A DNA stretch of 20,357 nt from a virus, in IMG/VR virus record IMGVR_UViG_3300023313_000142, positions 1-20,357 of that record, one strand, 5' to 3'. Below the pieces are notes generated by a model. The model was not told where the DNA came from and did no database searches. It saw nothing but the letters and a program-made list of their open reading frames with translations. The position numbers and the translations under genes are program-made. How positions within the stretch are numbered: the stretch's first letter is position 1; every line of letters begins with the position of its first letter. Shown piece after piece: positions 17 to 20,357 of the stretch.

Positions 17-95
17 TCTAAGCACCAAACAATCAATTACAGCGTTTTTAAAAATTATCTAAGCAAGTATACCTTAAAATATATAACCGTCTTAG
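17..95. repeat. TCTAAGC motif cluster at left end
   Basis: TCTAAGCA occurs at 17-24 and again at 58-65, 41 bp apart, about four helical turns. CTAAG at 59-63 is matched by CTTAG at 91-95 in inverted orientation. The segment between them contains TTAAAATATAT (74-84), also present in the left arm and loop of the 60-bp palindrome at 4360-4419. The right flank, around TAACCGTCTTAGG (84-96), resembles the palindrome arm TAACGYCTTAG with one extra base. I infer a degenerate member of the same site family; chance similarity in AT-rich DNA is possible. Confidence 0.4.
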
Positions 96-150
96 GATTC
101 GATACACGAACTCTGAGGGCATATTTTGATCTACTCGCTATAAGCAAAAC

Positions 151-3343: not shown

Positions 3344-4336
3344 ATGCTAGATATAAGAGATTTTAAAAAAAATAGTAATATTGATGGCGCTGAACTATTA
3401 AATAAATCTGAGTTTTTTAACCATGAAGATGTACCAACGGATATTCCACTACTCAATGTTGCATTAAGTGGATCATTGGATGGTGGTTTAAGCTCAGGTA
3501 TTACGATGATTTGTGGAGAGAGTAAAACTTTCAAAACAGGATTTTTAGTTCAGATGGTTAAAGCTCACCAGCAAAAATATAAAAAGAAATCAATTACTCT
3601 TTTATATGATTCTGAATTTAGTCCAATGGAATACTATGAGAGACAAGGAGTAAAATTAGATCAAGTTTTACATTTGCCTGTTACTACAATAGAGCAAATG
3701 AAGAATGATATAGCAAATCAACTCAATAGAATTAAACATGAAAATGTTATTATTATTATTGATTCTATTGGTGGATTGGCATCAAAAAAAGAAGCAGAAG
3801 ATTCAGTAGAGGGTAAAAATGTTACTGATATGACAAGAGCTAAGTCGATGGCTTCATTCTTTCGTGTTGTTACTTCTCCACTTTCAATGAAAGGTATTCC
3901 AATGGTGTTGATTAATTCGCATTATGAAACCCTTGAAATGTATTCAAAGAAAGTCACAGGTGGTGGAAAGAAACCTTATTTGAGTTCTGATGATGTTTGG
4001 TTTATTTCTCGCGCTCAAGATAAAGATGGTAAAGATTTAAAAGGTTATAAATTTACAATAACTGCTGATAAATCTAGATCAATCAAAGAGGGCAGTAAAT
4101 TCCCCATTGATGTTACTTATGCTGATGGTATCAATAAAAACTCAGGATTGTTTGATTTGGCTGTTGAATGCGGATTAGTTATTCAAAGTGGTGCGTGGTA
4201 TCAAACTGTTGAAGATGGTGTTGTCTCTGATAAAAAGGTTCGATCTAAAGAGATCAAAACACAAGAGTTTTTTGATGCTTTATTGAAGAATAAAATTTTC
4301 ACTGAATACGTTAGTAATAAATACATGTTACAATAA
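3344..4336 (+). CDS. UvsX/RecA-like strand-exchange recombinase
   Basis: This 330-residue ATPase should pair single-stranded DNA with homologous duplex for recombination-dependent replication and repair. It has a Walker A variant GESKTFKTG (residues 58-66, K64-T65), Walker B VIIIIDSIG (135-143, D140), and a glycine-rich VTGGGKKPY (204-212) at the expected DNA-binding loop 2. The unusual SKTFKT form of Walker A is typical of phage recombinases rather than bacterial RecA (GPESSGKT). It is shorter than T4 UvsX (391) and bacterial RecA (about 350). The start follows AGGA by six bases. It is the last gene before the palindromic element at 4360. Partners in the window are gp46/47-like nuclease and gp41-like helicase. 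A Sak4-type annealase is the main alternative, but the length favours UvsX/RecA. Confidence 0.9.
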   Translation: MLDIRDFKKNSNIDGAELLNKSEFFNHEDVPTDIPLLNVALSGSLDGGLSSGITMICGESKTFKTGFLVQMVKAHQQKYKKKSITLLYDSEFSPMEYYERQGVKLDQVLHLPVTTIEQMKNDIANQLNRIKHENVIIIIDSIGGLASKKEAEDSVEGKNVTDMTRAKSMASFFRVVTSPLSMKGIPMVLINSHYETLEMYSKKVTGGGKKPYLSSDDVWFISRAQDKDGKDLKGYKFTITADKSRSIKEGSKFPIDVTYADGINKNSGLFDLAVECGLVIQSGAWYQTVEDGVVSDKKVRSKEIKTQEFFDALLKNKIFTEYVSNKYMLQ

Positions 4337-4450
4337 GCGATAAGCTTGTGGTAGCCATTCTAAGGCGTTAAAATATATTCATAAGGTGTTTGTACCTTTT
4401 AAAGATTTTAACGCCTTAGAGGTGGTGTACGCTTGCTCTAAGGATAATAA
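4337..4450. other. Intergenic region 1, between recombinase and helicase genes
   Basis: This 114-base gap is one of only two gene-free gaps over 100 bases after the leader. It is almost filled by the 60-bp palindrome (4360-4419) and its outer motifs TAAGC (4341-4345) and CTAAGG (4438-4443). The latter overlaps the AAGGA ribosome binding site of the helicase gene, so a protein bound there could also affect helicase expression. I see no U-tract terminator. Confidence 0.7.
4360..4419. repeat. 60-bp interrupted palindrome, copy 1
   Basis: A perfect 15-bp inverted repeat, CTAAGGCGTTAAAAT (4360-4374) and ATTTTAACGCCTTAG (4405-4419), encloses a 30-base centre. The centre holds a second 5-bp hairpin, AAGGT (4383-4387) with ACCTT (4394-4398). 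The whole 60 bp recurs in inverted orientation at 18499-18558 with a single base difference. The centre is identical in both copies although non-coding, which points to function, recent duplication or gene conversion. It may be a promoter, origin, recombination site or mobile element; none can be proved from sequence. Confidence 0.95.
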
Positions 4451-5815
4451 ATGCAGAATGTTGCAGACGTTGATCTGTCACAAATAATTTTATCTAATAT
4501 TTTAAAAAACGAAACCTACGCAAATAAAGTAATTCCTGAACTCAGTATTGATTTTTTTGTTAACGAAACAGAAAAATTAATAGCCCAAACAATCATTAAA
4601 TTATATACACAATACTCAACCATCCCATCAGTAAAAGAACTCGTTGCTGATATGAGATCCAATAATAATGTTCATAATTTAAGTAAAACAATTATTAATG
4701 AGATCCTAGGCACAGGGATTATAATCGAAAATCAAAAATGGCTAATAGATCAAACTGAGCGCTTCATTAAGCGACAAAGAACATCATTAGTATTTATGAA
4801 AACATTTGAAGAATACGAGCATGGTAATGTTGATGTAACTGAATTCAGTAAACAATTCCAAGAGGCTGCTGCATTCACTTTCGATAATAATGTTGGTATG
4901 TCATTAATTAATGATGCTAGCGCTCGTTATGATTTATATACCAAAAAGCACGTCAAAATTCCTTTTGGTTTAAAGTGGCTAGATAAAGTTACTTATGGTG
5001 GTATGGAAGATGGAACTCTAAATTTAGTGCTTGCTGGTATTAATGCTGGTAAGAGTTTATTTATGGGTGATATTGCGGCTAAGTGTGCTAGTCGAGGCGG
5101 TAAGGTTTTAGTTATTTCATTAGAAATGGCAGAGATAAAATTAATAGAAAGAATAGAATCAAATTTAATGGATGTTCCTATTGGTAACATCAGAAAAATG
5201 TCTAAAGCTGAATACATGATAGCTCAGAAAAATTACATCAATGAGATCAATGTTAAAGGTGGAGATATTATATTTAAGCAGTACCCAACCAAAGCAGCAA
5301 ATGTTAATCATTTCAGAAACTTACTTATAGAATGTAAAAATAAACTCAGGTATGATTTTGATTTAGTAGTGATTGATTATTTAAACATTTGTGGTTGTTC
5401 GAGTACCAATAGAAATATGAATTCATATAGTGAAGTTAAAGCTATTGCAGAAGAATTACGCGCCTTGGCTATAGAGTTCAGTTTTCCAATACTAAGTGCA
5501 TCGCAAGTTAATAAAGATGCTCAAAGTAACACTCACATAAATTTAGAAGATATTGCTGAAAGTATTGGTCTTGCAGCAACAGCCGATTTTGTTATGACTC
5601 TTGTTGCTACAGAAACAATGATTGAACAGAATCAAGTTAAAATAGGTCAAGTAAAAAGTCGGTACGGTGATAAGTCATACAATACTAACTTTATGCTTGG
5701 ATTAGATAGAAAATATATGCGGTTGTATGATATTGATGATGAATTATCTTCATCAGAAGAAACAGAAGAAATAACATCACAAGAATTTGATTTAAGCGCA
5801 TTAACAGGAGATTAA
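4451..5815 (+). CDS. Replicative DNA helicase, DnaB/T4 gp41-like
   Basis: This 454-residue hexameric helicase should unwind duplex DNA at the fork. A helical N-terminal domain (about 1-140) precedes a RecA-fold ATPase. The ATPase has Walker A AGINAGKS (195-202), catalytic glutamate in VISLEM (E225), Walker B LVVIDYLN (305-312, D309), sensor Q in SASQVNK (349-355) and a KSRYGD arginine-finger region (402-407). Length is close to T4 gp41 (475). The C-terminus is acidic (SSSEETEEI), as is common for loader or SSB contacts. AAGGA, seven bases before the start, is part of the outer CTAAGG motif of the palindromic element. It is the first gene of the 14-kb block. No primase gene is visible in the window. 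Confidence 0.94.
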   Translation: MQNVADVDLSQIILSNILKNETYANKVIPELSIDFFVNETEKLIAQTIIKLYTQYSTIPSVKELVADMRSNNNVHNLSKTIINEILGTGIIIENQKWLIDQTERFIKRQRTSLVFMKTFEEYEHGNVDVTEFSKQFQEAAAFTFDNNVGMSLINDASARYDLYTKKHVKIPFGLKWLDKVTYGGMEDGTLNLVLAGINAGKSLFMGDIAAKCASRGGKVLVISLEMAEIKLIERIESNLMDVPIGNIRKMSKAEYMIAQKNYINEINVKGGDIIFKQYPTKAANVNHFRNLLIECKNKLRYDFDLVVIDYLNICGCSSTNRNMNSYSEVKAIAEELRALAIEFSFPILSASQVNKDAQSNTHINLEDIAESIGLAATADFVMTLVATETMIEQNQVKIGQVKSRYGDKSYNTNFMLGLDRKYMRLYDIDDELSSSEETEEITSQEFDLSALTGD

Positions 5816-6487: not shown

Positions 6488-7265
6488 TTTAACACTTGGT
6501 GACTGTTTAGATGTATTACCAAGTGTTAAAGATAACTCCGTTGATACAATTATAACATCACCACCATACGCAAATAAAAGAGATTATAATGGCTCTAATG
6601 ACTTGGATTATATAGATTTTATATCACCAATAATATTAATAATTAAAGATAAAATTAAACCTAGTGGTAGTATATTCATTAACATAAAGGAATGCTGTGT
6701 TGATGGTCAACGAAGTTTGTATGTTTATAAATTGATAATACATATCGTAGAAGAATTAGGACTGTATTTTATTGATGAATATATATGGAATAAAACAAAT
6801 CCATTTCCAAGTGGTAGTAAAAAGAGATTAAAGGATGGATATGAGAGAATATTACATTTTACAAAATCTAAAAATTATAAATTCTATCCTAATAATGTAT
6901 TAGTCAAGTCAACCTCAAAATGGTTAAAAACAGAAAAGAATAGAAAAAATAAAGCTGCTCATAATACAAATAATAACAGTAATATGAATATGTCTAAACG
7001 AATATCAACAGATATGGTTAGACCATCTAATGTAATAACTGGAAGTACATCAAACATAAACATAAACCATCCAGCGGTATATCCAATATACATACCAGAA
7101 TTTTTTATAAAATTAACAACACTAGAAAATGATATTATTCTTGATCCATTTATGGGTAGTGGAACTACTGGTATTGCTTGTAAAAATCTAACCCGTAAAT
7201 TTATCGGTATTGAATTGGATAAAGAGTATTTTGAATTATCAAAAATAAGAATAGGAACAGAATGA
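6480..7265 (+). CDS. Beta-class DNA methyltransferase with SPPY motif
   Basis: This 261-residue enzyme transfers a methyl group from S-adenosylmethionine to an exocyclic amine of DNA. The motif order is beta class: catalytic TSPPY first (26-30), then a variable target-recognition part rich in K, N and S (about 145-190), and the cofactor motif LDPFMGSGTTG last (221-231), followed by FIGIELDKEYF. SPPY is the form most often seen in N4-cytosine methyltransferases, so m4C is favoured; N6-adenine is possible. It overlaps the upstream gene by 8 bases without a strong ribosome site, implying translational coupling, and ends in an ATGA overlap with nrdA. No restriction endonuclease gene is adjacent, so it is an orphan, probably protecting phage DNA from restriction. 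Confidence 0.92.
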   Translation: MLNLTLGDCLDVLPSVKDNSVDTIITSPPYANKRDYNGSNDLDYIDFISPIILIIKDKIKPSGSIFINIKECCVDGQRSLYVYKLIIHIVEELGLYFIDEYIWNKTNPFPSGSKKRLKDGYERILHFTKSKNYKFYPNNVLVKSTSKWLKTEKNRKNKAAHNTNNNSNMNMSKRISTDMVRPSNVITGSTSNININHPAVYPIYIPEFFIKLTTLENDIILDPFMGSGTTGIACKNLTRKFIGIELDKEYFELSKIRIGTE

Positions 7266-10200
7266 TAACAATAATCGGAAGAACTGAGCCAGTATGTCAG
7301 TATTGCGAACAAGCAAAAAAAGACCTCAACAATAGAGGCATAAATTTTGAATTTATAGATGTAGAAAAAAATGAAAGTTCTAGACAATTACTGAATAGTT
7401 TAGGACTTAAAAGTGTACCTCAGTTGTTTTATAACAATGAACATATCGGAGATTCATCAGCAGCAAAAACATTTACTATTGGTCGAATGGCAACAAAGCG
7501 AAACGGTGATGTTGTGCCATTTAAAGCATCATGTATTAACAACATGGCTGAATGGGCTATAGCGGATAGCAATGTTACTGACTGGTCAAGTATTGTTATG
7601 ACAGCTATGCACAAATTACCCGTTGGTGATGTAACTACAGATCAAATTCAAAAATCATTAATCCAATCATTCTTAGATAAAAAACAGCCAAAATATAATA
7701 AAGTTGCTGGTCGATTATTATTAGGTGAGATCCGCAGATCAAGCTTAGCGAGTAACAACTTTACCGATTTTTATCATACAATGGTAGAAACTGGTTATTG
7801 GCGAGACATGGGATACGATGATATTGATTTGGATTACTTGGGATCATTCATTAATCAGGATAAAGATTTAGGTTATGGTTATCCAGCACTAAGACAAATG
7901 CTTGATAAATATATGATTAAAGATACATCAGGGGTATTATTAGAATTACCTCAATACATGTACATGGGTATTGCTATGTCATTGTTTGACAGTGATCCTT
8001 TGGATGATGTTGTTATGTATTATAAGAAAGCATCTGATCAGAAAATCAATATTCCTACTCCTGTTATGACAGGTCAACGAACAAAATCAAATGTTGGTGT
8101 TAGTTGTATTATCACAACAGCAGGGGATTCGTTACAGGGTATAGCGACCACAGAACATATCGCTTTTATGGGTACAGCTTCAAGTGCTGGTATGGGCGCA
8201 GAATACAATGTAAGAAGTCCTAAAGATGATGTTAGACAAGGTTATGCTAAAGCTGGTGGAAAACTTCCACATTATAAGGTAATGGATAAAATTGTTAAGT
8301 CGGTCTCCCAGAACTGTTATGATGATCAAACAGAAGTATTAACAAATAGAGGATATGTATTATTTTCTGATATTAAAAAGGATGATTTGTTAGCGCAAGT
8401 GCATGATGGGGGGAAATTAGATTTTGTTAAACCTATCAATATTTTTGAGTATGATTATTCTGGTGATATGATTAAATTTACTGATAATGGAAAAAATCGT
8501 AAAGTTGTTGATTTGTTAGTTACTCCAAATCACACAATGTGTTACCGATATAATAAACATGATAAAACTAATGATACTCCACTTGGATATACAAGAATTG
8601 AAGGTTCTTATATTATTGAAGATAAATTTAGTGAGTGTTTAGCTAATGATTTTACACCTAAACGATGCACTATATTTGAGCGAGCTAGTATAGGTAATGG
8701 AGAGCTTGATGAAATATCAGCGTTTGATAGGCTTAGAATTGCATTTCAAGCTGATAGCTATGCAAACTATAGATCAAAAAAAGGAATACATTTCCACATA
8801 AGTAAACAACACAAGATAGATAAGTTAATCAATTTAGCAAAATTGAATAATTTTGAATTCTCTGTGAATAATGAAAAAAATGGATCTACAAATATAATTA
8901 TACAAACTGGCTATGATTTACGCCCATTATTTGATAAAGATTTTGATTGGGTTGATATAACAAAAATATCATCAAATTGGGGTAGAGGATTCATGGATGA
9001 ACTGAGAAATTGGGATGGATCTAAACAAGATAGTAATTGTGAGTCTTATAGTTTTTCTAATACTAACAAAACTGCTATAAATAAGGTATCTGCTATTGCG
9101 TCTGTTAGTGGGATCACCCACTCTATCTCTAAGACAGAGTTTAGTAATCCTAAATGGAGTGATCTTTATAATCTTGGGTATGCTATGAATAGAAGATTTG
9201 TTTCTGGTCGAGGATGCAAAAAAGAAACAATTCAATATAGTGGTAAAGTTTATTGTGCAGAAGTTCCAACTAATAAACTTATGGTTAGACGTAATGGTAT
9301 GAGTGTCGTTTGTGGAAATTCAAGAGGTGGATCAGCAACAATAACATTCAATATTTTAGATCCAGAAATTGAAACATTATTAAAACTTAAACTTCCACGA
9401 ACAGTAGAAGAAAAGCGTATTGATATGCTTGATTATTCTTTATGTTTAAATAATGATTTCCTACGCAGAGCAGCACGTAAAGAAAAATGGTGCTTAGTTA
9501 GTAAACGCATCAATAAAGAATTGCATAATAGTTTTTATCATAAAAGAAACGATTTCTCATTTCTTATGGATCAAGCCATTAAAGAAAACCAAGGCGAAAT
9601 TGTTAACGCTTTTGATTTGTTGGTTATGTACTTAAACGCTAGAGCTGAAACTGGTAGGGTTTACATGTTCAATGTTGATAATGTGAATGATCATACACCA
9701 TTTGAGAAAACAGTCAGATTAAGTAACCTTTGTCAAGAAGTTGCATTACCTACAGATGATTATAATCATATTACGGAACTCTTTGAATCATATAAATCAA
9801 ATGAAAACGGATTAACCGCTCAGTGCTTTTTATCTGCTACTGATGTTGCTCGAATTGAAGATGATCAAGATTATGAAGATACAACTTATATCACTGTAAA
9901 GGCAATTGATAACTTAATGCAAAAAATGGATTATCCATTCGAGCAGTTCAAGTCAAGTGCGGATCAGTATCGTTCTATTGGTGTAGGTATTACTAACCTA
10001 GCTTATTGCTTGGCTAAGAATAATAAGTCTTATACTGATGTTGATTTTATCCATTCAATAGCAGAGCGCCATTATTACTTTTTATTAAAGGCATCTATTA
10101 GATTAGCCAAAGAGCGAGGATCGTTCCCACTCATTGATGAAACTAAATGGAAATATGGTTGGCTACCGATTGATACATATAATAAAAATGTTGATAAATT

Positions 10201-10672
10201 GTGGAGTATTTATAATTATAATTGGGAACTTATACGAGAAGAAGTTTTAGAATACGGAGTTCGTTTTAGTACACTATGCGCTCACATGCCATGTGAAAGT
10301 AGCTCAGTTGTATCATGCGCCACAAATTCGATCTATCCTATTCGTTCATATTTAATTTATAAAGACTCACGATCAGGAAAAATACAAATTTTTGCCCCTG
10401 AATGCGATCAATTAGTATATGAATCTGCTTGGGATTTACCCAATAAAGATTTAATCAATGCTTATGCTTGCGTTCAAAAATTCACAGACCAATCAATCTC
10501 TGCCGACACTTATGTTGACTATACAAAACAATCAAAAATTCCTTTATCTGAAAGTATCAACAACTTTCTCTATGCTAATAAAATGGGATTAAAAACTTTG
10601 TATTATCAAAACAGTAAAACAGGTCGAGGCATACAAGAAAAAGAAGAAACATGCGAAAGCTGTTCACTTTAG
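7262..10672 (+). CDS. nrdA: Class I ribonucleotide reductase large subunit with fused N-terminal glutaredoxin, intein-containing
   Basis: The 1136-residue precursor reduces ribonucleotides to deoxyribonucleotides together with NrdB. Residues 1-75 are a glutaredoxin (active site CQYC 12-15, SVPQLF cis-proline region). About 76-160 form an ATP-cone allosteric domain (KRNGDVVPF). The catalytic barrel follows. An intein occupies 352-686. Catalytic residues are present: redox cysteines C282 and C855, radical set N822/C824/E826 (SNLCQEVALPT), paired tyrosines Y1114-Y1115 and the C-terminal CESC (C1131, C1134). Without the intein it is 801 residues. The fused glutaredoxin probably re-reduces the C-terminal cysteines directly. 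Start ATG 7262 overlaps the methyltransferase stop as ATGA, with AGGA five bases upstream. No internal ribosome site favours a separate NrdA. The partner nrdB lies about 3 kb downstream, separated by unrelated genes. Confidence 0.96.
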   Translation: MITIIGRTEPVCQYCEQAKKDLNNRGINFEFIDVEKNESSRQLLNSLGLKSVPQLFYNNEHIGDSSAAKTFTIGRMATKRNGDVVPFKASCINNMAEWAIADSNVTDWSSIVMTAMHKLPVGDVTTDQIQKSLIQSFLDKKQPKYNKVAGRLLLGEIRRSSLASNNFTDFYHTMVETGYWRDMGYDDIDLDYLGSFINQDKDLGYGYPALRQMLDKYMIKDTSGVLLELPQYMYMGIAMSLFDSDPLDDVVMYYKKASDQKINIPTPVMTGQRTKSNVGVSCIITTAGDSLQGIATTEHIAFMGTASSAGMGAEYNVRSPKDDVRQGYAKAGGKLPHYKVMDKIVKSVSQNCYDDQTEVLTNRGYVLFSDIKKDDLLAQVHDGGKLDFVKPINIFEYDYSGDMIKFTDNGKNRKVVDLLVTPNHTMCYRYNKHDKTNDTPLGYTRIEGSYIIEDKFSECLANDFTPKRCTIFERASIGNGELDEISAFDRLRIAFQADSYANYRSKKGIHFHISKQHKIDKLINLAKLNNFEFSVNNEKNGSTNIIIQTGYDLRPLFDKDFDWVDITKISSNWGRGFMDELRNWDGSKQDSNCESYSFSNTNKTAINKVSAIASVSGITHSISKTEFSNPKWSDLYNLGYAMNRRFVSGRGCKKETIQYSGKVYCAEVPTNKLMVRRNGMSVVCGNSRGGSATITFNILDPEIETLLKLKLPRTVEEKRIDMLDYSLCLNNDFLRRAARKEKWCLVSKRINKELHNSFYHKRNDFSFLMDQAIKENQGEIVNAFDLLVMYLNARAETGRVYMFNVDNVNDHTPFEKTVRLSNLCQEVALPTDDYNHITELFESYKSNENGLTAQCFLSATDVARIEDDQDYEDTTYITVKAIDNLMQKMDYPFEQFKSSADQYRSIGVGITNLAYCLAKNNKSYTDVDFIHSIAERHYYFLLKASIRLAKERGSFPLIDETKWKYGWLPIDTYNKNVDKLWSIYNYNWELIREEVLEYGVRFSTLCAHMPCESSSVVSCATNSIYPIRSYLIYKDSRSGKIQIFAPECDQLVYESAWDLPNKDLINAYACVQKFTDQSISADTYVDYTKQSKIPLSESINNFLYANKMGLKTLYYQNSKTGRGIQEKEETCESCSL
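8315..9319 (+). mobile_element. Intein with LAGLIDADG-type homing endonuclease domain, inside NrdA
   Basis: In-frame 335-residue insertion (precursor residues 352-686) that should excise itself and join QN to SRGG. It begins with C352 (CYDDQTEVLT, block A), has block B TPNHTMCY (T and H at intein residues 70 and 73), block F VYCAEVPTNKLMV, and ends VVCGN before extein Ser687. The penultimate residue is G instead of the usual H, a variant seen in many phage inteins. The middle carries two endonuclease half-motifs, LRIAFQADSYA (D147) and GFMDELRNWDG (D234), each with its acidic residue, so the endonuclease may be active. Insertion is at the conserved KSxSQ/RGG site of class I NrdA. The intein makes the gene unfunctional until splicing, which is typical of such parasites. 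Confidence 0.94.
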
Positions 10673-15992: not shown

Positions 15993-18103
15993 TTTTATTT
16001 CAGTCTGCATCAGCGCAGAACTTTCTAAGTATCGGTTCTAGTACAGTAGCGTTTGATTTGTATAGCATAGATAAGACAATTATTTATGGTACAAATGGTA
16101 CAGGTAAATCAACCATTATTGATATTATTACTTATGCTTTGTTTAACAAAACTATCCGTGATGTTAAATTACCTCAGTTAGTTAATTCTGTTAATAAAAA
16201 GAACATGGTATGTAGTGTAGAATTTTCTATTAATTCTCATAGTTTCAAAGTAAGCAGAGGTCAAAAACCAACACTGTTTACTATAGAAAAAGATGGTAAA
16301 TTATTAGATGAAGATGCAGCTACTAAGGATTTACAAAAGCGCCTAGAACAAGAAATACTTGGTTGTGATTATCGTAGCTTTACTCAAACATCAATTATGT
16401 CTAGTTCAGGTTCTAAATACTTCATGGAGTTAACTACACCTGAGCGCAGATCAGTTGTTGAACAGATGCTTGATATTGAAGTTATCGGTAGAATGTCTAG
16501 TGTTATTAAAGATAGACAAAAAGAAATAAACGCTAGAGTAGAATCAAATATAAATAGTATTAATATTTGTGAAATAAACATTACAAATAAAAAAGAAAAT
16601 ATTGATTCTATTAGTGTTATTTCTAAAGATCATTTAACCTCAAAAGAAGATGAGCTAACAGATTTAATAACGAATTTAACGGTTGCTAATACACAGCTTA
16701 ACGAATTAAATTCTGTTGTTATTAAATATCCCGAAAAACCAACAACTCCAACTAAGCCAGAATACGTTTGTAGTGAAACGCCAGAGAAACCAGTTATTAA
16801 TACTGATGTTGTTCTTCCTGATGAACCAAAATATAAGATTTCTGAACTACCATTGGAGCCAGCACAGGGTAATACTAATTTAATCAGTGAGTTAATTGAA
16901 AAAAGAATTTCTATAGAACAATCTATGAAATCATTAATTAATGATGCTAATTATCATAAGAAACGAGCAGAATTTTATAAAACTCACAACAGTTGTGATA
17001 ACTGCAAACAAGAAATTTCTACTGATTTTAAGAGATCTATATTTGAAACTATAAATTCTGATATTAAAAAATCAGGAAATTCATATAAAGAGTTAAATAA
17101 TGAGTTAGATAATGTTAAATATAAAATAGAAGAACAAAACAATATTAAATCAATTCATGATCAGTGGGGATCTGATTGTTATGATATTGAGGCAACTACT
17201 CTATCATTTAATACTGCATTAAAACGTGATTGGGAATTAGAATGCAATGCTATTATTTCAGCAAATAATAACAAGAATAATAAAATTATTTCTGATTGGG
17301 AAACAGTATGTAATTCATTAGCTGCTAATGATAAAGCAAGCCATGAGCAAAAAGTTGCTGAGTACGAGCAAAAAGTATGGGAATTAATGAAGCCATACAA
17401 AGATGAATGCCAGCGATTAGATTTAGAACATACAAGTCAATTGCGCGAGCTAAACAATAAAGTATCTGATCTAACCACAAGACAAATCAAATTAGAACAA
17501 GATATTTCTGAACTTAAATCAAAACAAAATAATAACTTAGAAAAATATACACAAGAGCTAAATGTTCTTAATGATGAATACTCTTTGTTATTAGTTAATC
17601 GTGGAAATTTAAGAGAAGAATTAGAGACTGTTAAATTAGGCATAGAAATGCTTAAAGATACAGGACTAAAAGCTAAAATTGTTCAGCAATACCTACCAAA
17701 TATTAATATTAGTATTAATGATTATTTGGATAAAATGGGTGCTAATTATTCATACGTATTAGATGAAAACTTTAACGAGACTATTAAATCTAGACATCGT
17801 GATAAATTTAGTTATGGATCATTTAGTAATGGTGAGCGGAGTCGGATCAATTTTGCTATTATGTTGATGTGGATAGACTTAGCAAAATCTAAAAATACAA
17901 TCAGTTCAAATTTGTTATTAATTGATGAAGTATTAGATTCTGCTTTAGATGAAGATGGTATCAATAAGGTTATGCACATATTTGATGCAATGGAAATGAA
18001 TATCTTTGTAGTCTCTCACAGAAAAGAGATCAGAGATTTATTTGATACTAAAATTGAAGTAACCAAAAACGGTAATTTCAGCCAATATAGGACAACAGAA
18101 TGA
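15989..18103 (+). CDS. Recombination ATPase, SbcC/Rad50/T4 gp46-like with zinc hook
   Basis: This 704-residue SMC-type ATPase partners the gp47-like nuclease. It has Walker A GTNGTGKST (34-42), Q-loop QTSIMSS (Q133), a first coiled coil to about 240, a CDNC zinc hook (C336, C339), a second coiled coil to about 560, ABC signature FSNGERSR (612-619), Walker B LLLIDE (642-647), D-loop SALDEDG and switch histidine VVSHR (H677). It is longer than T4 gp46 (560). An odd proline-rich stretch at about 247-292, with PEKP twice and several KP/EP pairs, interrupts the first coil. It starts in an ATGA overlap with AAGGTGG upstream and ends in ATGA coupling to the next gene. Confidence 0.95.
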   Translation: MILFQSASAQNFLSIGSSTVAFDLYSIDKTIIYGTNGTGKSTIIDIITYALFNKTIRDVKLPQLVNSVNKKNMVCSVEFSINSHSFKVSRGQKPTLFTIEKDGKLLDEDAATKDLQKRLEQEILGCDYRSFTQTSIMSSSGSKYFMELTTPERRSVVEQMLDIEVIGRMSSVIKDRQKEINARVESNINSINICEINITNKKENIDSISVISKDHLTSKEDELTDLITNLTVANTQLNELNSVVIKYPEKPTTPTKPEYVCSETPEKPVINTDVVLPDEPKYKISELPLEPAQGNTNLISELIEKRISIEQSMKSLINDANYHKKRAEFYKTHNSCDNCKQEISTDFKRSIFETINSDIKKSGNSYKELNNELDNVKYKIEEQNNIKSIHDQWGSDCYDIEATTLSFNTALKRDWELECNAIISANNNKNNKIISDWETVCNSLAANDKASHEQKVAEYEQKVWELMKPYKDECQRLDLEHTSQLRELNNKVSDLTTRQIKLEQDISELKSKQNNNLEKYTQELNVLNDEYSLLLVNRGNLREELETVKLGIEMLKDTGLKAKIVQQYLPNINISINDYLDKMGANYSYVLDENFNETIKSRHRDKFSYGSFSNGERSRINFAIMLMWIDLAKSKNTISSNLLLIDEVLDSALDEDGINKVMHIFDAMEMNIFVVSHRKEIRDLFDTKIEVTKNGNFSQYRTTE

Positions 18104-18471
18104 ATGAAATAAAAGAATTAATTTTTGATGCGTGTGTATTTATTCAGGATAATAATTCTGATGCTAATACCATGTTAAATATTTTACGATTTTTAGATGG
18201 TAAAGAAAAACCAATTACTGATAATTCATTAATACGACAAAACCTTTTGCCTGATGTTATCAATGCGATACAAATGCGTTGTGAGGTTGAGGGTATTGAT
18301 TTTCTAAACGATGAAGAAATGGATAGTATGGTTGGTGGTGATTTATATGAGTACATGGCGAATACTTATTTAAAGTTATACATTGAAGCGAATTATAAAA
18401 ATATTAAGCACTGTTTGGATAATTGGGAATCAACAAAAACATTTCTAGAATCACATCTAGAAGAACAATAA
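18100..18471 (+). CDS. Acidic helical protein of unknown function, 123 residues
   Basis: The start overlaps the gp46-like stop as ATGA with AGGA upstream. The protein is acidic and appears mostly helical (INAIQMRCEVEGIDF, EYMANTYLKLYIEANY), with no membrane segment or catalytic motif. It is the last gene of the 14-kb block before the second palindromic element. Near its end a 7-bp inverted repeat TTCTAGA/TCTAGAA (18443-18462) lies within the coding sequence. Family not recognised; coupling suggests it is made with the recombination proteins. Confidence 0.75.
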   Translation: MNEIKELIFDACVFIQDNNSDANTMLNILRFLDGKEKPITDNSLIRQNLLPDVINAIQMRCEVEGIDFLNDEEMDSMVGGDLYEYMANTYLKLYIEANYKNIKHCLDNWESTKTFLESHLEEQ

Positions 18472-18475
18472 TCTG

Positions 18476-18581
18476 TTCTAAGCTCAACATAACCACTTCT
18501 AAGACGTTAAAATCTTTAAAAGGTACAAACACCTTATGAATATATTTTAACGCCTTAGAGAGGACAATCATTGGCTTAGAA
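18476..18581. repeat. Nested palindrome of 106 bp with arms at 21-bp spacing
   Basis: Outer arms TTCTAAGC (18476-18483) and GCTTAGAA (18574-18581) are perfect inverted repeats. Inner arms lie at 18499-18513 and 18544-18558. Both pairs share the same centre (18528.5). On each side the CTAAG/CTTAG cores are exactly 21 bp apart (18478 to 18499; 18554 to 18575), two helical turns. This geometry suggests a multimeric protein binding on one face of the DNA. Copy 1 has a similar but degenerate outer set. Confidence 0.85.
18499..18558. repeat. 60-bp interrupted palindrome, copy 2 (inverted relative to copy 1)
   Basis: The reverse complement of this segment matches 4360-4419 at 59 of 60 positions by eye. 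The one difference puts A at 18504 in the left arm (CTAAGACGTTAAAAT) opposite C in the right arm (ATTTTAACGCCTTAG). A minus-strand transcript would keep pairing as G-U at that place; a plus-strand transcript would not. The inner hairpin AAGGT (18520-18524) and ACCTT (18531-18535) is intact. Outside the arms similarity fades quickly. Confidence 0.95.
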
Positions 18582-18593
18582 TACAAGGAAAAT

Positions 18594-18929
18594 ATGGAAA
18601 TAATTAAAAAGTATTTTAAAGAGTTATACGAACAATATTCTACTGATTCTGACGCAGAAATAAATTTTATTTACGGATCAGTAGAACGAACAATGAAACA
18701 AAAAGCTAGATACAAATATTGTTATCTAAACATACCAACAGTTATACAAACTATTCAGTTAGAAATAGATTTATTAAATTCTGTTAGTCGTAGTGCTTTT
18801 AATCTACACGATCAAAACAAACGCGATATTTACAGAAATAATAGTTTAAAAAGATGTCAAAAAAACAACAAAATAAATAAGGAAAAACGTGAAAATAATC
18901 TCAAGAAATCAATCAATGCAAATGGCTAG
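18594..18929 (+). CDS. Protein of unknown function with basic C-terminus, 111 residues
   Basis: AAGGAA lies seven bases upstream of the start. Residues 1-70 are mixed and moderately acidic (FKELYEQYSTDSDAEINFIY). From about 75 the chain is very rich in K, R and N (CQKNNKINKEKRENNLKKS), which could bind nucleic acid. No known motif is visible. It is the first gene after the second palindromic element, so whatever that element does may govern it. The last 41 bases overlap the next gene. Confidence 0.65.
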   Translation: MEIIKKYFKELYEQYSTDSDAEINFIYGSVERTMKQKARYKYCYLNIPTVIQTIQLEIDLLNSVSRSAFNLHDQNKRDIYRNNSLKRCQKNNKINKEKRENNLKKSINANG

Positions 18930-19107
18930 AATTATGGCTGTGGAAATGGATTGTTGTATTAATGCAAATGAGCTGATGTATGAATATGTATCAGTATGTA
19001 ATAACGCAGATGTAGATGTTGGTATATCAATGATTGGTAGCCCTGATGTTTATAACTTCACAATAAACAAAGAAATCACGCTTACATCAATATCAGAATT
19101 AGGATAA
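18889..19107 (+). CDS. Small protein of unknown function with GTG start, 72 residues
   Basis: The start at 18889 is GTG, with AAGG six bases upstream (18879-18882). A later ATG at 18917 lacks a good ribosome site, so GTG is preferred. The product is a short, slightly acidic protein with a methionine-rich helical start (MQMARIMAVEMDCC) and a strand-rich end (YNFTINKEITLTSI). No motif is recognised. It overlaps the upstream gene by 41 bases and ends two bases before the MazG-like gene. Confidence 0.6.
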   Translation: MKIISRNQSMQMARIMAVEMDCCINANELMYEYVSVCNNADVDVGISMIGSPDVYNFTINKEITLTSISELG

Positions 19108-19109
19108 TT

Positions 19110-19625
19110 ATGAGTACATACAAAAGAGTAAAAGAGTGGAATGAAGCAGCAGGGAAATACCCATCTGATGATCCACTTGAATTTAAAGATGTATTACTGA
19201 ATCAATTAGCGCGAATTCAAGAAGAATTGGATGAAGCTGTAAAAGCAGTAAAAGAAAACAATCATATTGAAATGCTTGATGCTGCTTGTGATTTAGACGT
19301 TACTGTTAATGGCTATGCTTATTTACTTGATGTTAAAGATTATCAAGGAGCTATTAATGCTGTTCTTGATAATAACGATAGTAAATTATATACAGCCGAT
19401 GATATTACTCATGCGTTTGTTCGAGCCGATAGCCTATCAGCAACTACAGGTGAATTACATACAGTAGTTTGTACGATTAATGAAAATTCAGGCGTTAATA
19501 TGGAAGATATGAAACTAGAAGAATTAATCGAGGCAGAGGCAATTGTGAGCATTCATCGTGATCGTGATGATAAAGTTTGCAAGCCTGATGGTTTTGTTGG
19601 TGTTGATTTAGGCGAATTTTTATAG
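19110..19625 (+). CDS. MazG-like nucleotide pyrophosphohydrolase
   Basis: This 171-residue protein has the helical metal-binding signature of the MazG/HisE/dUTPase-2 superfamily: EELDEAVKAV (38-47) followed by IEMLDAACDLDVTVNG (53-68), giving the E-x-x-E and E-x-x-D pairs (E38/E39/E42; E54, D57, D61). It probably hydrolyses nucleoside triphosphates or an alarmone-like nucleotide to the monophosphate and pyrophosphate. The remaining C-terminal 100 residues, starting near AVLDNNDSKLY, occur in phage versions and may set substrate preference. AGGA precedes the start by six bases. Possible roles are dNTP pool cleansing or lowering host (p)ppGpp during infection. The exact substrate is not predictable. 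Confidence 0.85.
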   Translation: MSTYKRVKEWNEAAGKYPSDDPLEFKDVLLNQLARIQEELDEAVKAVKENNHIEMLDAACDLDVTVNGYAYLLDVKDYQGAINAVLDNNDSKLYTADDITHAFVRADSLSATTGELHTVVCTINENSGVNMEDMKLEELIEAEAIVSIHRDRDDKVCKPDGFVGVDLGEFL

Positions 19626-19632
19626 GAATAAA

Positions 19633-20357
19633 ATGCAAGACGATTTAGTTAGTGATTTAGAAACACAAGCAAATAATTGGTTAATGCTTGGTGATTGTTT
19701 AGAAAGAATGAAAGAAATACCTGATGGATCAGTAGATATGATATTAACAGATCCACCATACGGAACGACTAAGTGTAAGTGGGATTCTATTATTCCATTA
19801 GAACCTATGTGGGAACAATTGAAACGTATTATTAAACCTAATGGTGCTATTGTTTTATTTGGTAGTCAGCCATTTACAAGTATAATTGTAAGTAGCAATA
19901 TAAAGATGTTTAAATATTCATTAGTATGGAAGAAATCACAAAGCACAGGACATCTAAATGCTTGGCGTATGCCAATGAGATCACATGAGGATGTTTTAGT
20001 TTTTTATAATAAACCACCAACTTATAATCCTAAATTAATAGATAAACCAATATCTAATATAAGACCCATAACAAGCAGAACAAAAACAACTGATTGTTAT
20101 GGTAATCACCGATTGGATGCTCATAGATGTCCTCCTAATAAGTCAATGCCTAATAGTATACTGCAGTTTAATAACGCACAAGGAAAGTTACATCCAACTC
20201 AAAAACCTGTAAAGCTTATGGAATACTTAATTAAAACATATAGTAATGAAGATGAAACTATTTTGGATTTTACTATAGGTAGTGGAACTACAGGAGTTGC
20301 TTGTAAAAATCTAAACCGCAGATTTATAGGTATTGAACAAGATGAAGAATATTTTGA
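19633..20357 (+). CDS. Beta-class DNA methyltransferase with DPPY motif, cut by window end
   Basis: The first 241 residues are visible; the 3' end is beyond the window. Catalytic LTDPPYG (38-44) comes first, then a target-recognition stretch (about 100-185), the LHPTQKPVKLMEYLI block (186-200), and the cofactor motif LDFTIGSGTTG (211-221) with FIGIEQDEEYF. The order is beta class and DPPY favours N6-adenine. The cofactor motif has FT in place of the usual PF (LDPFMGSGTTG), but the GSGTTG loop is kept, so activity is likely. Its end resembles the SPPY enzyme at 6480 (ACKNL..RFIGIE), so the two may be distantly related copies. AGGA lies upstream. Probably an orphan protective methyltransferase. 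Confidence 0.92.
   Translation, partial: MQDDLVSDLETQANNWLMLGDCLERMKEIPDGSVDMILTDPPYGTTKCKWDSIIPLEPMWEQLKRIIKPNGAIVLFGSQPFTSIIVSSNIKMFKYSLVWKKSQSTGHLNAWRMPMRSHEDVLVFYNKPPTYNPKLIDKPISNIRPITSRTKTTDCYGNHRLDAHRCPPNKSMPNSILQFNNAQGKLHPTQKPVKLMEYLIKTYSNEDETILDFTIGSGTTGVACKNLNRRFIGIEQDEEYF

Follow-up and report, generated by a model that had tools for sequence, protein, structure and literature searches.

The locus and the copies of the element

The window, meaning the whole 20,357-nt stretch of viral DNA analysed here, carries a T7-like RNA polymerase gene, a UvsX/RecA-like gene (3344-4336) followed by a DnaB-like helicase gene (4451-5815), and a ribonucleotide reductase large-subunit gene (7262-10672) that encodes an in-frame glutaredoxin domain at the N terminus and an apparent intein, read from the translation (CYDDQTEV...VVCGNS). 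Two paralogous N6/N4 DNA methyltransferase genes give rise to a direct repeat of 79% identity (7125-7234 and 20248-20357). Leaving aside the stretch upstream of the RNA polymerase gene, just two internal non-coding gaps exceed 30 nt, with lengths of 114 and 122 nt, and a palindromic element of about 106 bp fills both. The site at 18476-18581, here termed c2, belongs to a set of six related copies of this element, which lie between genes of an uncultured bacterial virus.

The initial annotation had described c2 as two concentric inverted repeats with a 21-bp spacing, and this layout was borne out; it had not recorded that the structure is repeated elsewhere in the window, as two further copies. 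The outer and inner arm pairs (Table 1) are both centred on 18528.5, and the TCTAAG cores, beginning at 18477 and 18498 on the plus strand and at 18554 and 18575 on the minus strand, are 21 bp apart on each side. The inner arms differ by one mismatch, and in a repeat search of 1.4 kb the arms merge into a single 38-nt inverted repeat, the longest found. When placements in the genome are drawn at random, 0.075% of them show a concentric 8-bp pair with an exactly shared centre, and 0.5% do if the centre may slip by up to 2. The window holds 10 occurrences of the heptamer TCTAAGS where 3.5 are expected (none of 100 shuffles reached this), and 8 of the 10 fall inside the three non-coding gaps, whose combined length is 2.7% of the window (P about 1e-11; counting the duplicated inner arms once gives 1e-8).

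Table 1. Positions in the window of element copies c1 and c4 and of the parts of copy c2.
Feature	Position	Strand	Remarks
Copy c4, diverged, upstream of the T7-like RNA polymerase gene	17..118	.	No stable hairpin
Copy c1, inverted relative to c2	4339..4446	-	Core 4359-4426 97% identical to 18492-18559; outer arms degenerate
c2 left outer arm, TTCTAAGC, the element's left end	18476..18483	+	Seen in sequence; identical bases and spacing in c5 and c6 of L131
c2 left inner arm, TCTAAGACGTTAAAAT	18498..18513	+	21 bp from outer core; TCTAAG and TTAAAA invariant in c1, c2, c3, c5, c6
c2 loop, apical hairpin AAGGT-ACAAAC-ACCTT	18520..18535	.	From the fold; c5 and c3 have a different palindrome here
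c2 right inner arm, ATTTTAACGCCTTAGA (TCTAAGGCGTTAAAAT on the minus strand)	18544..18559	-	Sequence and repeat search
c2 right outer arm, GCTTAGAA (TTCTAAGC on the minus strand)	18574..18581	-	Sequence and repeat search; conserved in c6

The six copies are spread over 49.4 kb of one phage type: c1, c2 and c4 in the window, c3 in the IMG/VR contig L004, and c5 and c6 in the IMG/VR contig L131. Copy c1, which came up when the window was searched with c2, occupies the 114-nt gap between the UvsX and helicase genes, a junction that measures merely 8-10 bp in L006, L007 and L016 and that holds an HNH endonuclease gene in L005. Copy c3, recovered by a pattern search of IMG/VR, is the same palindrome and fills the gap that follows a gene for a family-B DNA polymerase; L004 also has, at 5281-5324 inside an open reading frame beginning at 5220, a 15-bp inverted repeat without mismatches around a loop of 14 nt. 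A second such search recovered c5 and c6, which are adjacent in a 322-nt gap before the terminase gene. Thus c1-c3, c5 and c6 sit in gaps and c4 upstream of the RNA polymerase gene. The two additional contigs come from one metagenome. Window, L004 and L131 share no overlap except the element and one weak 31-nt match; all three have genes of the henriette 12B8 type and similar GC contents (30.9%, 31.9% and 33.3%, respectively), and we infer that they come from one genome or species, apparently as pieces of a phage type about 100 kb in size.

The most diverged copy, c4, has TCTAAG-like sites at 17 and 58 (both TCTAAGC), at 90 (CCTAAGA, minus strand) and at 112 (TCTGAGG). It is the best match of c3 in the window besides c1 and c2, with a local score reached in 1 of 2000 shuffles and an alignment that extends over the full length, and it folds no better than shuffled sequence (z +0.26). 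A poly-G run at positions 1-16, at the contig start, is probably a sequencing artefact, and c4 may be truncated on the left.

Sequence searches gave no match to the element beyond these contigs. BLAST against phages and plasmids returned no real match, the element is absent from whole Vibrio phage records and from the relatives L016 and L017 discussed below, and nothing like it was found outside its phage type. The bare hairpin pattern CGTTAAAAT matched 31 viral and 8 genomic sequences, which, L004 excepted, were put down to chance.

Conservation of half-sites, spacing and orientation

Copy c6 matches c2 (18476-18583) with 88% identity over 111 nt, outer arms included, as TTCTAAGCTC[A/C]ACATAACCACTTCTAAG, and because of this match the outer repeat and its spacing are seen to be conserved rather than an accident of c2. 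The distance between inner and outer cores is 21/21 bp in c2, 21/20 in c6, 21 in c5 (left side) and 20 in c3. The concern that relatives might keep the inner element and lose the outer arms or their spacing was met by a mixed picture: both outer half-sites are present in c2 and c6 and the left one only in c3 and c5, while c1 has lost the left one and retains a degenerate right one (GCTTAT, 20 bp).

Alignment scores place c1 and c3 in inverted orientation relative to c2, c5 and c6, so that any function would be independent of direction; the annotated flanking genes all run one way although the copies face both ways. A flip of the c2 loop alone was considered and dropped, since c6 shows that the whole element with its flanks is inverted between copies.

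Among the five well-aligned copies (c1, c2, c3, c5 and c6), 12 of the 16 pairs of the inner helix never vary, and TCTAAG and TTAAAA are invariant on both arms. The changes that do occur (six cells) are all one-sided; five break a pair and one leaves a T.G wobble, so that none is compensated. The apical hairpin of the loop, which counts the other way but is suggestive only, occurs in three sequence versions, which could reflect either structure or quasi-palindrome correction, a choice that five related copies cannot decide. Double-stranded half-sites of the form TCTAAG-N3-TTAAAA are favoured over an RNA stem because of the uncompensated changes, the invariance of TCTAAG and TTAAAA, the hairpin-free c4 and the free orientation; the comparison of copies therefore favours a double-stranded DNA binding site rather than an RNA hairpin.

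Signals of transcription were sought directly. No sigma70-like promoter with at least 10 of 12 matching positions lies inside c1-c3; the best matches in c2 reach 9 of 12, and promoter-like matches in the region are no commoner than in shuffles. Neither a terminator-like site nor a T run of that kind was found in 17800-19200. A T7-type promoter was considered for the right flank, where c3 and c4 share a ATTCGATACA-GA-CT stretch, and was rejected as the motif does not recur.

A putative operator and its rivals

At roughly even odds (about 0.5), the element is a dispersed, orientation-independent, operator-like piece of regulatory DNA, putatively bound by a multimer at phased half-sites. Each copy carries inverted inner half-sites (TCTAAG-N3-TTAAAA) with centres about 55 bp apart, and in the best-preserved copies another half-site, TCTAAGC, lies outside the inner one at a distance of 20-21 bp, or two turns of the helix. 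A phage or host protein could bind these phased half-sites cooperatively as a multimer, the bound multimer would fold or loop the DNA, and this folding or looping might in turn set transcription, or insulate units, at gene boundaries. The original suggestion of a multimer-bound site gains indirect support from the invariant half-sites, the uncompensated stem breaks, the recurring 20-21 bp interval, the occurrence in both orientations and the promoter cassettes of relatives; nothing points to the recombinase, transposase-end or initiator role that was suggested with it. The observation that no gene obviously encodes the binder also held, in that the small open reading frames tested in this incomplete genome gave no informative family match for a candidate binder or regulator. 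The function itself is one that we infer, because no binder, promoter or terminator was identified. Counting against a simple operator are the strongly conserved loop and the apical hairpin, which such a site does not need, and the invariance of the half-sites partly reflects recent duplication, the copies being few and related.

The main rival is a small mobile or selfish palindromic repeat of the REP/BIME or MITE kind, spread by recombination or by a transposase acting in trans, with the outer arms as terminal inverted repeats and no regulatory job. This is possible but doubtful, and the mobile and regulatory readings may both be true. Bacterial repeats of these kinds are short extragenic palindromes, repeated and found in both orientations (e.g. 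PMC3733652, PMC2759123). The present element shares with them its extragenic position, its palindromy and its two orientations, and mobility would also suit the two copies side by side in L131, the ends defined by TTCTAAGC and GCTTAGAA in c2 and c6, and the short UvsX-helicase junction of L006, L007 and L016. It departs from them in having few copies, confined to one phage type, and neither a transposase nor a RAYT partner was seen in the open reading frames read from the incomplete genome, nor was a target-site duplication recognised. Moreover, all copies occupy intergenic, control-like gaps, and outer and inner cores keep their helical spacing; both points tell against the mobile reading.

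Action as RNA is improbable. A hairpin between cistrons, lying immediately ahead of the ribosome-binding sites and acting either as a site of RNase III processing or as a stability site, would fit the very stable folding of c1, c2 and c3 (z values of roughly -5 to -6; for the c2 region as single-stranded RNA, -34.6 kcal/mol and z -6.2, with none of 200 shuffles as good), the end of the structure just before the Shine-Dalgarno sequence, and the persistence of an apical hairpin with other bases in c3 and c5. The c2 region folds almost equally well on its two strands (z -6.2 and -5.9 against shuffles). However, the inner-stem changes of c2, c5 and c6 are uncompensated, c4 lacks the hairpin, copies are inserted in both orientations, and there is no terminator-like T run; a covariance-model search of Rfam with the element gave no match at the gathering threshold and only chance matches at a permissive one. 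Least probable of all is a replication, recombination or packaging site, in which an iteron-like array would recruit an initiator or recombinase. The 21-bp phasing is iteron-like and the neighbouring genes belong to replication and recombination, with a terminase gene in L131, but the element is present between genes in five or more places, whereas an origin or pac site would call for fewer, and no integrase or initiator was seen in the window.

The operator-like reading may also be put more broadly, in a form that is rather unlikely: a previously undescribed phage protein would assemble on the phased TCTAAG sites and, by looping or insulation, switch or organise the whole transcription programme independently of orientation, a layer of control that would be shared in principle by phages combining a T4-like replication module with a T7-like RNA polymerase. 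Under the narrower reading as a putative operator, the element is a regulatory-type repeat in a lineage of phages about which little is known, the relatives of Vibrio phage henriette 12B8, and arrays of the form TTCTAAGC-N13-TTCTAAG offer a concrete DNA bait for the putative binder.

Control sites in the nearest relatives and in known systems

When RNA polymerase, UvsX and helicase are compared, L016 and L017 are the closest phages found. L016 is 46% identical to the window phage in its RNA polymerase and 49% in its helicase; for L017 the values are 54% in the RNA polymerase, over the part present, and 56% in UvsX. Both carry dispersed intergenic repeats at a density comparable to that of the window element, about 20 in 107 kb in L016 and about 14 in 98 kb in L017, and these are clear sigma70-like promoters with inverted repeats (TTTACT-TATAAT in L016, TTGACA-16-TATAAT in L017). 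In L016/G002, cassettes at about 20 places (for example L016 2849-2981, 3974-4096 and 8288-8383) have a sigma70-like promoter, preceded in several copies by an intrinsic terminator, together with inverted repeats of GGGTTAACGGTTAACCC or GCTTTAC..GTAAAGC.

The L016 repeats, with their terminator and promoter, look like the PeSL cassettes of T4-type phages, which are reportedly short repeated intergenic units of a promoter plus a stem-loop and are said to mediate the shuffling of modules. PeSL cassettes have been proposed to be both mobile and regulatory. The window element resembles them in being repeated at intergenic positions, in six copies, but has no recognisable promoter or terminator, forms a concentric palindrome and occurs in both orientations. 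Another point of comparison is provided by the stoperators of cluster A mycobacteriophages, repressor sites that are present in many copies across the phage genome and control transcription; each is short and asymmetric, and the repressor binds it as a monomer (PMC9283540). The window element would be a comparable dispersed binding site, TCTAAGS being enriched and clustered in gaps here; it differs in having paired inverted half-sites within a palindrome of about 106 bp and no known repressor.

The promoter palindromes of L016 and L017 are, like the window element, dispersed and intergenic at similar density, and L017 family B even has concentric arms. They differ in having an evident TATAAT, which the inverted repeat either encloses or comes after, and in that all of them point with the genes; there is no sequence similarity, and the analogy is one of place, density and layout. 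On this analogy the window element would be its own lineage's counterpart of the promoter-operator cassettes in the nearest relatives, and taken together the three suggest that each member of the lineage owns a genome-wide set of control sites.

The loop promoters of L017/G003 are a more striking find than the window element. At least 13 sigma70-like promoters have their -10 box in the loop of an inverted repeat (for example L017 1536-1600, 2485-2551, 6354-6435, 8865-8962 and 17911-17980; G003 10252, 33606, 55189 and 64753), and the arm sequences vary between sites yet pair within each site. In L017 the two arms of a site match each other better than they match arms drawn from other sites, scoring 89 where the shuffles average 67 (none of 5000 as high), a figure inflated by related copies. 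These promoters are possibly an operator set or a hairpin or cruciform promoter. A similar arrangement is present between c5 and c6 in L131 (2986-3035), where TATAAT lies within a 7-bp inverted repeat (GCTTGTA..TATAAT..TACAAGC) and resembles the L017 promoters.
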